A stretch of DNA of 64,000 nt, taken from contig LN483070.1 of assembly GCA_900016675.1 (NCBI GenBank), forward strand, positions 1,612,001-1,676,000. Direction: 5' to 3'. Shown in pieces: positions 42,595-47,235 of the stretch (the first letter of the stretch is position 1; the number at the start of each line of letters is the position of its first letter). Both the position numbers and the translations under genes were made by a program. The stretch comes from Arthrobacter saudimassiliensis. Its GTDB lineage: Bacteria; Actinomycetota; Actinomycetes; Actinomycetales; Micrococcaceae. Below the pieces are notes generated by a model. It did no database searches, was not told the DNA's origin, and was given only the letters and a program-made list of their open reading frames with translations.

Positions 42595-45093
<2,499 letters not shown>

Positions 45094-45188
45094 TGTTGCT
45101 TCGCCCTTGTCCTCTATGAAAATCCTCAGGTACCGCTGCTGCGTCGGCAGCGCCCTCGCGGGGCCCTGCCGGTTCTCCCCAGACACAC

Positions 45189-45214
45189 AAAAGCCCCTCG
45201 ACTCAGCAAGGGGC
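45189..45214 (-). terminator. Attenuator terminator in the leuS leader
   Basis: On the - strand an 8-bp stem (GCCCCUUG with CGAGGGGC, one G-U pair) has a 6-nt loop (45193-45214) and is followed by UUUU (45189-45192). It lies about 95 nt before the leuS start and downstream of the leader ORF, the usual place for a transcription attenuator. Confidence 0.8.
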
Positions 45215-45215
45215 G

Positions 45216-45238
45216 GCCGCGCACGGAACGTGCGCGGC
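45216..45238 (-). promoter_or_regulatory. Leader hairpin between the leader ORF and the attenuator
   Basis: Perfect 10-bp stem (GCCGCGCACG with CGTGCGCGGC) and a 3-nt loop, starting at the last base of the leader stop codon. It is probably the pause hairpin or part of the antitermination switch; the competing structure is not clear by eye. Confidence 0.7.
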
Positions 45239-45264
45239 TAGCTAAGGAGAAGCAGTGCGGTCAT
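45238..45264 (-). CDS. leuS leader peptide with four consecutive Leu codons
   Basis: An 8-codon ORF encoding MTALLLLS, ATG start and TAG stop, with Leu codons CTG, CTT, CTC, CTT. It overlaps the last codons and stop of the upstream SDR gene in another frame. Its ATG lies 6 nt after a TACAGT box. It is far too short for routine gene calling, but the Leu run right before a terminator upstream of leuS makes chance unlikely. Confidence 0.8.
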   Translation of the reverse strand: MTALLLLS

Positions 45265-46261
45265 CTTTCCACTGTACCGCAGGCGCGGCGGCAGCGGGCG
45301 GGGATGACCGGCGGGCGTCGCGGAAGGCCAGGAAGGCCTCGCGGGACGTGTAGCGGGGAACGTAGCCGAACTGTTCCTTGAGCGCGGTGTTGTCCAGGAC
45401 CGGCCGCCAGCGCAGGAACCGCACCTGCTCGGGCCCGTGGACGGTCAGGCCGAGCCGGCGCCCGATCCGCAGCGCCGCGCCGAGCAGGGCCGGCGGGACC
45501 GTGACGGTGCGTTTGCCCAGCAGCCGGGCCAGCTCGTCGACGCCGAGCCAGCCGTCGCCGGCCACGTTGTAGGTGCCGCTGATGCCTTCGACGGCGGCGC
45601 GCACCATGCACGCGGCGACGTCTTCGTCCCAGATGAAGACGAAGGGCGAGTCACTGCCGGCGACCTTCAGCAGCCGCGGCGCGTCGAACAGGGCGGTGAT
45701 CTGGTTCCGCACGCCGGTGCCCAGGATGGTGCCGATCCGGAAGACGGTCTGCTCCAGCTCGGGGTGCGCCGCGCGGTACCGGGCAAGCTCCTCCTCGACC
45801 AGGCGCTTGTGCCGGCTGTAGGCGAATTCGTCGTTGCCGCGCAGCGGGTCCGACTCGCGCAGCGGCACCGGGTTGTCCGGATGGTAGCCGTAGGCCGCGC
45901 CGGAGGAGGAGACGATGATCCGTCCGACGCCGGCCGCGACGCACCCGGCGAGGACGTTGCCGGTACCGCCGACGTCGACCCGGTACTCCTGTTCACGGCT
46001 GGTGTTTTTGCCGGGGTTGACGATGGCCGCCAGATGGACGACCGTGTCGATCCGGTGCTCGGCGAGGACGGCCCCGACCGCCGGGTCGCAGACGTCGGCG
46101 GCGGCGTAGGCGACGCCGTCCAGGCGCCGCCCATCCGCCGGCGGGCGCAGGTCCAGGCTGAGGATGTGGTCGACGCCGGCGGAGTGCGCCAGCCGGGCGA
46201 TCACGGCGCTGCCGAGGAACCCGTTGCCCCCGGTGACGCAGATCCGGCGTCCGTTGCTCAT
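45242..46261 (-). CDS. NAD-dependent epimerase/dehydratase family (SDR) protein
   Basis: The 339-residue extended SDR has the NAD-binding motif TGGNGFLG (residues about 10-17), the SSSGAAYGY serine region and the catalytic YxxxK as YSRHK. Relatives include nucleotide-sugar epimerases and 3-beta-hydroxysteroid dehydrogenases; the substrate is unknown. The ATG overlaps the BASS stop by 4 bp. A longer open frame extends upstream but is inside the transporter gene. The 3' end overlaps the leuS leader peptide. It is the last gene of the FMO-BASS-SDR operon. Confidence 0.88.
   Translation of the reverse strand: MSNGRRICVTGGNGFLGSAVIARLAHSAGVDHILSLDLRPPADGRRLDGVAYAAADVCDPAVGAVLAEHRIDTVVHLAAIVNPGKNTSREQEYRVDVGGTGNVLAGCVAAGVGRIIVSSSGAAYGYHPDNPVPLRESDPLRGNDEFAYSRHKRLVEEELARYRAAHPELEQTVFRIGTILGTGVRNQITALFDAPRLLKVAGSDSPFVFIWDEDVAACMVRAAVEGISGTYNVAGDGWLGVDELARLLGKRTVTVPPALLGAALRIGRRLGLTVHGPEQVRFLRWRPVLDNTALKEQFGYVPRYTSREAFLAFRDARRSSPPAAAAPAVQWKDDRTASP
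45271..45276 (-). promoter_or_regulatory. Candidate -10 box for the leuS leader
   Basis: TACAGT lies 6 nt before the leader ATG at 45264, the same spacing as in the leuA leader. It sits inside the SDR coding region. There is no clear -35. Confidence 0.55.
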
Positions 46262-47235
46262 TGTGTGGTCTCCCCCGTGGTGTCGGTGCTGCCGGTGCGG
46301 CCGGCCGTGCCTGCGGCGTGCTCCGCCGGTTGCGCCCGTCCGGCGGGCGGGCGCCGCCGCCAGAGCGAGGCGAGCACGAGGCCGGCGATGATGTCCCAGA
46401 TCCCCCACCAGGCGGTGACCATGGCCATGCCGCCCAGCCCGGCGAAGAACGTCAGGGTCAGGCCCAGCCCGAGCCCGGTGTTGCGGGCCCCCACTTCGAA
46501 GGTGACCGCGCGGCGGCTGTCCTCGGGCAGCCGCACCAGGGCGGCGGCGAAGTAGCCGACGGCGAGGGCGATGGCGTCGTGCAGCAGGACGACCAGGAAG
46601 ATGATGCCGAAGTGGTCCTTGAGGGCGCCCAGGTTCGAGGCGGTACCGGCGATGATGAAGGCCAGCAGCGCGAGCATGCCGATCCGCTGCACCCAGGGGC
46701 GCAGGCGGACCACGAGGCCGGGGAATCGGCGTGCCAGCGGCATGCCCAGCGCGAAGGGCAGCCCGATGATCAGCAGCACCTGGAGCAGCAGCTCCCACCG
46801 GTCGAGTTCGAAGTCGCGGAGCAGGGCCGCCGTGCCGGGCAGCAGGTTCGCCCACAGCGCGACGTTCAGGGGCATCACGGCGATGGCGACCAGGTTCGAG
46901 ACCGCCGTCATCGACGCGGAGAGCGCAACGTTGCCGCCGGCCCGGTAGGTCAGGACGTTCGAGATGCCGCCGGGCGGGCAGCAGGCCACCAGGATCATGC
47001 CCAGCGCCACCGAGTCCGGCGGGCGCAGCAGCAGCGCCAGGCCGACGGTCGCGGCGGGAAGCAGCAGGTACTGGGCGCAGACGCCGAGCACCATCGCCCG
47101 CGGCTGCCGGGCCACCTGGCGGAAATCCTCCGCCTTCACCTCCAGGGCGATGCCCAGGATGATGATGCCCAGGACGACGTTCAGCACCACCAGTGACAGC
47201 GGGCTGAAGCTGAGGACGACCGAATCAATGGGCAT
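46258..47235 (-). CDS. Bile acid:sodium symporter (BASS) family transporter
   Basis: The 325-residue membrane protein has about nine or ten hydrophobic segments with BASS family features: LACCPPGGISN-like motif (here VACCPPGGISNVLTYRAGG), and FEVGARNTGLGL in the second half. BASS transporters move bile acids, pantoate, pyruvate or other organic anions. The substrate cannot be told. The protein has a Pro/Ala/Thr-rich hydrophilic C-terminal tail of about 35 residues. It overlaps the FMO gene at its start and the SDR gene at its end. Confidence 0.9.
   Translation of the reverse strand: MPIDSVVLSFSPLSLVVLNVVLGIIILGIALEVKAEDFRQVARQPRAMVLGVCAQYLLLPAATVGLALLLRPPDSVALGMILVACCPPGGISNVLTYRAGGNVALSASMTAVSNLVAIAVMPLNVALWANLLPGTAALLRDFELDRWELLLQVLLIIGLPFALGMPLARRFPGLVVRLRPWVQRIGMLALLAFIIAGTASNLGALKDHFGIIFLVVLLHDAIALAVGYFAAALVRLPEDSRRAVTFEVGARNTGLGLGLTLTFFAGLGGMAMVTAWWGIWDIIAGLVLASLWRRRPPAGRAQPAEHAAGTAGRTGSTDTTGETTQ

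Follow-up and report, generated by a model that had tools for sequence, protein, structure and literature searches.

The leuS gene of Arthrobacter saudimassiliensis is preceded by a short leader that is very probably an attenuator sensing Leu-tRNA, and on comparison of its sequence with those of other actinobacteria it is a shortened form of a known leuS leader attenuator. The original prediction of a leucine leader attenuator in front of leuS is supported by the conservation of the Leu codons, of the two hairpins and of the leaderless spacing.

The window, that is the whole stretch of DNA analysed, comprises 64,000 nucleotides; the coordinates below are those of the window and all features lie on the - strand. 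Direct reading of the sequence confirmed the predicted layout of TACAGT, 6 nt, an ORF encoding MTALLLLS, a 10-bp hairpin and a terminator stem of 8 bp. The -10-like element TACAGT (45271-45276), of the leaderless promoter type, was assigned from sequence and conservation and reads TAAAGT in the 28 relatives of the same genus; 6 nt separate it from the leader ATG at 45264. No promoter was found with a sigma-70 consensus scan of 44900-45700, so the promoter call rests on the -10-like element and its conservation. The leader ORF, ATG ACC GCA CTG CTT CTC CTT AGC TAG (45238-45264), has 8 codons, of which the four consecutive Leu codons CTG CTT CTC CTT (45244-45255) are presumed to be regulatory from the codon bias of the last one. 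Hairpin 1 (hp1), a perfect 10-bp hairpin at 45216-45238 identified by folding and covariation, has the G of the leader stop codon TAG as its first base. The terminator hairpin GCCCCTTG..CGAGGGGC (45193-45214) has a stem of 8 pairs, 6 of them G-C; it was obtained by folding, covariation and a terminator scan, in which it was the sole terminator-like site between 44900 and 45700. Directly 3' of the stem follows TTTTGTGTGT, and the U-rich tract TTTTGTGT seen in the sequence and in the terminator scan occupies 45185-45192. The segment TCTGGGGAG (45175-45183) is complementary to the Leu run and could form a long-range helix with it in the read-through RNA, as suggested by the minimum free energy (MFE) fold and by a comparison of own with swapped segments. 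The leuS gene (42595-45093) starts with a GTG at 45093, about 100 nt past the terminator stem, and the identity of its product as leucyl-tRNA synthetase is clear from Pfam (LeuRS editing domain PF13603, E 2.8e-61, and the class I catalytic domain). None of 200 dinucleotide shuffles of the leader RNA folded as well as the native sequence (z -2.9). Rfam models run over 44000-46500 gave four matches below the gathering score, none of which covered the leader, and neither a T-box nor any other Rfam element was found there.

The leader had also been predicted to overlap the 3' end of an SDR gene. The overlap is present: an open frame with an upstream NAD-dependent epimerase (SDR) gene, recognised by its frame and by Pfam, extends over 45242-46855 and its stop codon TAG (45244-45242) lies inside the leader ORF. 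As a feature, however, the overlap looks local and incidental. In the two relatives read (L016 and L028) the SDR gene stops some 21 codons upstream of the leader ATG, and the arrangement in the window therefore looks like a local stop-loss. The SDR/epimerase frame of the window is some 18 codons longer than in these two relatives and crosses the leuS promoter into the leader ORF (45242-45300).

The conservation of the Leu run and both hairpins upstream of leuS in the Micrococcaceae, which had been suggested as a check of the prediction, is complete within the genus and extends to part of the family. All 28 same-genus genomes carry the -10 element, the 6 nt, the ATG, the Leu run, hp1 and the terminator, one of them (L008) with the run reading LLNL. 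As judged by eye, there is no conservation upstream of the -10 element or farther than about 15 nt past the U tract. A covariance model was built from eight leaders, seven of the genus including the window and one of another genus (L032). It matched 81 of 149 genomes of the family, once in each and in 20 of 32 genera (E 0.1), 72 of 246 genomes of the class, in 37 of 104 genera and twice in two of the genomes (E 0.1), and 14 of 246 genomes of the phylum (E 0.01); these searches used stricter filters, and their draws overlap in genomes and include the source genome. With the same stricter filters, 68 of the 149 family genomes gave no match. The class matches amount to 74 rows, of which 51 were fetched, one was already in the set, one was the window itself and 21 were left out. 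Of the 120 loci fetched after a model match, 115 encode LeuS downstream (tblastn, E up to 1), and the script pattern recognised a leader in 101 of the 120; degenerate leader forms escape calls of this kind. Outside the class, one matched locus (L285) shows, by eye, the leader peptide MAAALLLSPPR upstream of a LeuS start.

Most of the loci outside the genus were found through a model built on the spacing of Micrococcaceae leaders. A search with the LeuS protein and no RNA model gave a leader by script pattern in 27 of 80 named loci, including those of Pseudarthrobacter enclensis, several Arthrobacter, Microlunatus, Nonomuraea, Nocardioides and Marmoricola. The pattern was not recognised in the other 53, among them all six Microbacterium loci of this search; four of the 53 (L177, L181, L194 and L222) have little upstream sequence and are not true absences. 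The first LeuS search covered 59 genomes, 30 of them of other genera, and of the upstream regions read for 15 of these 30 the leader was absent from six (L033-L036, L041 and L044). In 18 of the 28 same-genus genomes of this search the open frame has only 838 aa, so an extension of the frame is not generally kept. Since leuS regions without a leader exist, leuS does not need it.

Two further observations concern the spread of the element. Three loci of one genus (L145, L147 and L149, from genomes G120, G070 and G097) are still matched by the model with leaders reading MVLRLALR, MVLRPVLR and MVLRPALR, in which the Leu run is lost; L145 keeps both hairpins in its fold. This suggests attenuators that are decaying or have been re-targeted. 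The element is also found upstream of leuS in L127, L130 and L159 (G037, G052 and G040), which belong to families of the same order where the window LeuS is matched only in pieces with 39-51% identity; the element therefore accompanies divergent LeuS proteins too.

The counts of leaders given below come from loci L001-L164, of which 25 were without a leader by the script pattern and 139 were kept. Removal of duplicates, sequences containing N and six loci with mis-called terminators (L078, L100, L101, L103, L104 and L148) left a set of 121. The shuffle, covariation, swap and recoding tests also left out L097, L099, L158 and near-identical rows.

Attenuators of leuS have been predicted in Streptomyces avermitilis and S. 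coelicolor by Seliverstov et al. 2005 (PMC1262725), in agreement with a remark to this effect in the original prediction. The S. lividans leader LeuL2, MRAVRLLLSEPR, lies upstream of leuS and is described as transcribed leaderless, with a hairpin and a run of uridines after it (PMC8079986). Three of the class genomes (L128, L140 and L142) encode the LeuL2 peptide letter for letter, and since a model made from Micrococcaceae leaders matches these genomes the window element is a member of the LeuL2-type family of leuS leaders. The two have in common a leader ORF with a Leu run directly upstream of leuS, a hairpin and a terminator with a U tract; they differ in length, with 8 codons in the window and 12 in the LeuL2 type. 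Long leaders commonly end L-L-L-S/T/I-E/G-P-R-stop, whereas the window leader ends one codon past the Leu run. The window reads CTT AGC TAG CCG CGC where L128 reads CTT AGC GAG CCG CGC TGA. From this alignment of codons, a single base change from GAG to TAG is the apparent cause of the shortening relative to the Streptomyces form, and the former Pro-Arg codons apparently survive in the window only as the 5' arm of hp1. Leaders of at most 9 codons make up 93 of the 139; nine of these are outside the Micrococcaceae, so the shortening or lengthening of the leader may have happened more than once. Among the short leaders outside the family are L105, L113 and L133, and five Micrococcaceae leaders are longer than 9 codons. 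A search of the open-access literature found no description of a leuS attenuator in the Micrococcaceae.

Of 127 distinct leaders, 96 have a spacer of 6 nt between the -10 element and the start codon and 31 have one of 7 nt, with a pattern that allowed 5-8 nt. We infer a leaderless start at the leader AUG, which fits the 6-nt spacing. The start site of the leuS leader has been mapped in S. lividans and gives a leaderless transcript (PMC8079986). In 107 of the 127 leaders the Leu run closes with CTT and in two with CTG, while the 204 Leu codons of four window genes comprise 4 CTT, 47 CTC and 153 CTG. Both CTT and CTC are decoded by tRNA-Leu(GAG), for which a single gene was present among the tRNA loci examined in the genome (part of the 54 tRNA matches were typed). 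The bias of the last codon and the single gene are in keeping with stalling of the ribosome on a hungry codon.

Both hairpins are supported by covariation. In an alignment of 99 leaders, 98.2% of the cells are paired and 13 of 15 pairs change on both sides, in an alignment that was fitted to the tested structure and therefore leans towards it. The 99 sequences (the window and 98 loci) were picked from 165 sources as distinct and with a readable leader, a choice that favours well-formed members. For hp1, 8 of 9 modelled pairs change on both sides and 97.8% of the cells are paired; the values for the terminator are 5 of 6 and 98.7%. None of 500 shuffles was as good, and sliding the partners by 1-3 columns reduced the paired cells to 40-52%.

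In most leaders the two hairpins do not exclude each other. Folding of the whole leader as an ensemble is the proper test of whether they fold jointly, and without a ribosome both have a mean pair probability of at least 0.8 in 109 of the 121 leaders. With a ribosome at the first Leu codon the same holds for 105. The gap between hp1 and the terminator is 0-2 nt in 112 of 119 leaders by whole-leader folding, and in 121 of 121 when only the stretch from the last Leu codon to the terminator is folded, where overlap is excluded by construction. The description of the attenuator as canonical is therefore unsupported, as hp1 and the terminator fold together and no conserved antiterminator was found. 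The prediction reported no unambiguous antiterminator in the window, and none that is conserved could be identified among the 121 distinct leaders. Of the features of a classical three-helix attenuator, the leader has the codons of the regulated amino acid and, apart from the exceptions given below, lacks a mutually exclusive antiterminator that shares bases with the terminator.

What is kept instead is the spacing. In 100 of the 121 leaders exactly 5 nt, and in 115 of them 4-5 nt, separate the last Leu codon from hp1, and hp1 itself spans 19-62 nt while the flanking distances stay nearly fixed. In the 27 leaders of the protein-only search the distance from the last Leu codon to hp1 is 4-5 nt in 24 and that from hp1 to the terminator 0-1 nt in 26. 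The rigid spacing is thus no product of the model, since it recurs in leaders that the protein search alone supplied. When the A site holds the last Leu codon and counting starts at the first base of the P codon, the base of hp1 falls on position 12, near the mRNA entry of the ribosome. Along the unfolded RNA, 26-67 nt (median 36) separate the last Leu codon from the terminator, so that it would take a folded hp1 to carry a stalled ribosome into the repressing range. With the ribosome stalled at the last Leu codon, the distance from the P site to the RNA end is 74.4 +/- 9.9 nt when linear, 44.3 +/- 2.0 nt with hp1 folded and 25.5 +/- 1.2 nt with both hairpins folded (65, 45 and 26 nt in the window); the arithmetic counts each folded hairpin as 3 nt, places the RNA end 8 nt beyond the stem and borrows expressome values from E. 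coli. A stall at the first of the four Leu codons adds 9 nt by the same arithmetic, giving 35 nt in the window.

A possible explanation of this geometry, which we put forward tentatively from the spacing, is a proximity attenuator gated by hp1, in which the amino acid would be sensed without an antiterminator and the terminator excluded sterically. Transcription would start at the leader AUG. With plentiful Leu-tRNA the ribosome would pass CTG-CTT-CTC-CTT to the stop codon, melt hp1 and leave, after which the terminator would fold and leuS would be off. When Leu-tRNA is short, perhaps mainly the GAG isoacceptor that reads CTC and CTT, the ribosome would stall with a Leu codon in the A site and stand just before hp1, which would stay folded. 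With hp1 folded and the polymerase at the U tract, the mRNA between the P site of the ribosome and the active site of the polymerase would be shortened to about 45 nt. If the terminator folded too, this distance would drop in the window to between about 26 nt, for a stall at the last Leu codon, and 35 nt, for one at the first, which is inside the collided range, so that the terminator would be hindered and read-through would turn leuS on. The resulting logic would be on with a stalled ribosome and off with a released or absent one. We infer the direction of regulation and the identity of the isoacceptor in this scheme.

In E. coli, coupled complexes have 46-47 nt, collided expressomes at most 37 nt and a functional collision 28-29 nt (PMC11711091), and collided expressomes have been modelled as incompatible with terminator hairpins (PMC7858274). 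Also in E. coli, the terminator tR2 is repressed if a ribosome is able to halt no farther than about 27 nt from it; termination is maximal beyond about 27-30 nt and strongly dependent on sequence below that (PMC4824070). Termination at pyrL falls from 21.5 to 9.9% with a trailing ribosome (PMC10135430).

Folding with a ribosome placed on the leader bears on this proposal in both directions. A ribosome placed at the first Leu codon leaves hp1 intact (at least 0.8) in 107 of the 121 leaders, and one placed at the stop codon leaves it intact in none. If the ribosome covers 9 nt past the A codon, a stall at the last Leu codon preserves hp1 only by half (mean 0.50, at least 0.8 in 3 of 121, 0.57 in the window), and hp1 would therefore be safe only with an earlier stall in the run or with a shorter footprint. 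The terminator is at 0.8 or above in 119-120 of the 121 leaders at every ribosome position tested, so equilibrium folding alone predicts no switch. The stop codon lies 9-61 nt from the terminator (median 25, at least 20 in 117 of 121, 23 in the window), which is near or under the 27-nt threshold given in PMC4824070, so a lingering ribosome might itself repress termination and the proximity mechanism needs prompt release.

Known attenuators share parts of this arrangement. The pyrBI operon of E. coli resembles it in that a ribosome near the RNA polymerase hinders folding of the terminator (PMC10135430, PMC4824070); as described there, pyrBI senses UTP by pausing of the polymerase and the ribosome draws near by translating, whereas in the leuS leader a hairpin would bring the polymerase closer to a ribosome that has been halted. 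The stop codon of the window leader is, as given above, 23 nt from the terminator. In leaders of the pyrBI type the terminator overlaps or adjoins the leader stop codon within a few nt and the pauses sense pyrimidines. The 'fast attenuator' of ilvBNC in C. glutamicum, likewise an actinobacterium, is alike in that its mRNA begins with the leader start codon, that CUU is among its control codons and that a hairpin adjoins the terminator, but its antiterminator and terminator are reported to share a GCC trinucleotide (PMC11857589), while hp1 and the terminator of the window fold side by side. M. tuberculosis ilvB1 likewise has a leader ORF with amino-acid codons, and a ribosome at the stop codon is described as blocking the antiterminator; it differs in the mutually exclusive hairpins proposed for it, in the gene and in the amino acids (PMC13236596).

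We regard a classical antiterminator as unlikely. It would form in one of two ways: the Leu run would pair with the loop and 3' arm of the terminator and so enclose hp1, or hp1 would overlap the base of the terminator as in ilvBNC. The Streptomyces leuS element is termed classical and listed with an antiterminator hairpin in PMC1262725; among the leaders here a search found no competing hairpin that is conserved. When the terminator is forbidden and no ribosome is present, the best fold of 119 of the 121 leaders joins the Leu run to the loop and 3' arm of the terminator, and the fold of the Leu run with the 3' arm costs only 0.5 kcal/mol in the window; over the 121 leaders the median cost is 6.9 kcal/mol. 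Without a ribosome the pair probability of the terminator is 0.76 in the window and below 0.5 in three of the 121 (L004, L007 and L150). Outside the Micrococcaceae, own partners pair better than swapped ones (5/5000 for the arm, 32/5000 with the loop), whereas in the Micrococcaceae they are no better (1710/5000). Synonymous recoding with the pooled codon usage of the leaders leaves the cost unchanged (native minus recoded -0.13 +/- 0.34 and -0.34 +/- 0.35); with the usage of the window genes the differences are -0.79 +/- 0.48 and -0.91 +/- 0.34. A stalled ribosome would moreover cover the Leu run and, with the usual footprint, so would a ribosome at the leader stop codon. The helix is thus possible only without a ribosome on the Leu run, which is the wrong response for an antiterminator of this kind. 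Pairing of the Leu run with the 3' arm was rejected as the main mechanism, being unselected by the recoding test and having the wrong dependence on the ribosome. The overlap of hp1 with the terminator base was rejected since both fold together in most leaders, that is, there is mostly no competition between them. A further candidate, pairing of the terminator 5' arm before the 3' arm is made, shows a pattern opposite to that needed by a starvation antiterminator: at least 4 bases of the arm are paired in 36 of the 121 leaders without a ribosome, in 13 and 17 with a ribosome at the first and last Leu codon, and in 55 with a ribosome at the stop codon.

Translational or combined control is a rather improbable alternative, in which the Leu run of the read-through RNA would pair with the segment after the terminator or with the leuS Shine-Dalgarno sequence, in the manner of the LEU element of leuA, and a stalled ribosome would free it. 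The LEU element of actinobacterial leuA also has a Leu-codon run able to pair downstream, but it belongs to another gene and is described with a pseudoknot and a base stem that involves the leuA Shine-Dalgarno sequence (PMC1262725); the window leader stands upstream of leuS and has a terminator. The MFE fold of the window leader pairs CUCCUUAG with CUGGGGAG, and the segment after the terminator is conserved within the genus. For the 18 nt after the terminator, own segments beat swapped ones in the Micrococcaceae (7/5000) and in the other families (0/5000), with a null reversed control for that stretch; one reversed control also reached 14/5000, however, and eight stretches were tested in each of the two groups. 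Against dinucleotide shuffles the pairing stands out only weakly (mean z -0.47 over 70, reversed control -0.29). The long-range helix with the leuS Shine-Dalgarno sequence was rejected as weak. The counterpart of the window segment 45175-45183 reads TGTCCGG in several other families.

It is very improbable that the terminator is constitutive, with the leader serving mainly as the source of a short stable RNA or a peptide that acts elsewhere and leuS expressed by basal read-through. A trans-acting trp leader peptide has been described for Sinorhizobium (PMC7298713), but this explanation leaves the Leu codons, the bias to a rare codon and the association with leuS in the fetched loci unexplained. 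A chance arrangement without function, for which no supporting evidence was found, can be dismissed: it is refuted by the conservation and covariation, and a pattern of TANNNT, 5-8 nt, a short ORF with three identical consecutive residues, a stable hairpin and TTTT, run over both strands of the window, matched the leader alone, and it matched nothing in 40 random second-order Markov sequences (64 kb, one strand each).

Leader attenuators of leuS, previously in print for Streptomyces, are thus common to many actinobacterial families, and the leaders come in two lengths with a closely kept geometry. If attenuation by proximity gated by hp1 is true, searches for mutually exclusive hairpins would miss a class of attenuators, and the coupling of ribosome and polymerase in Actinomycetes would be testable in an RNA of 80 nt.
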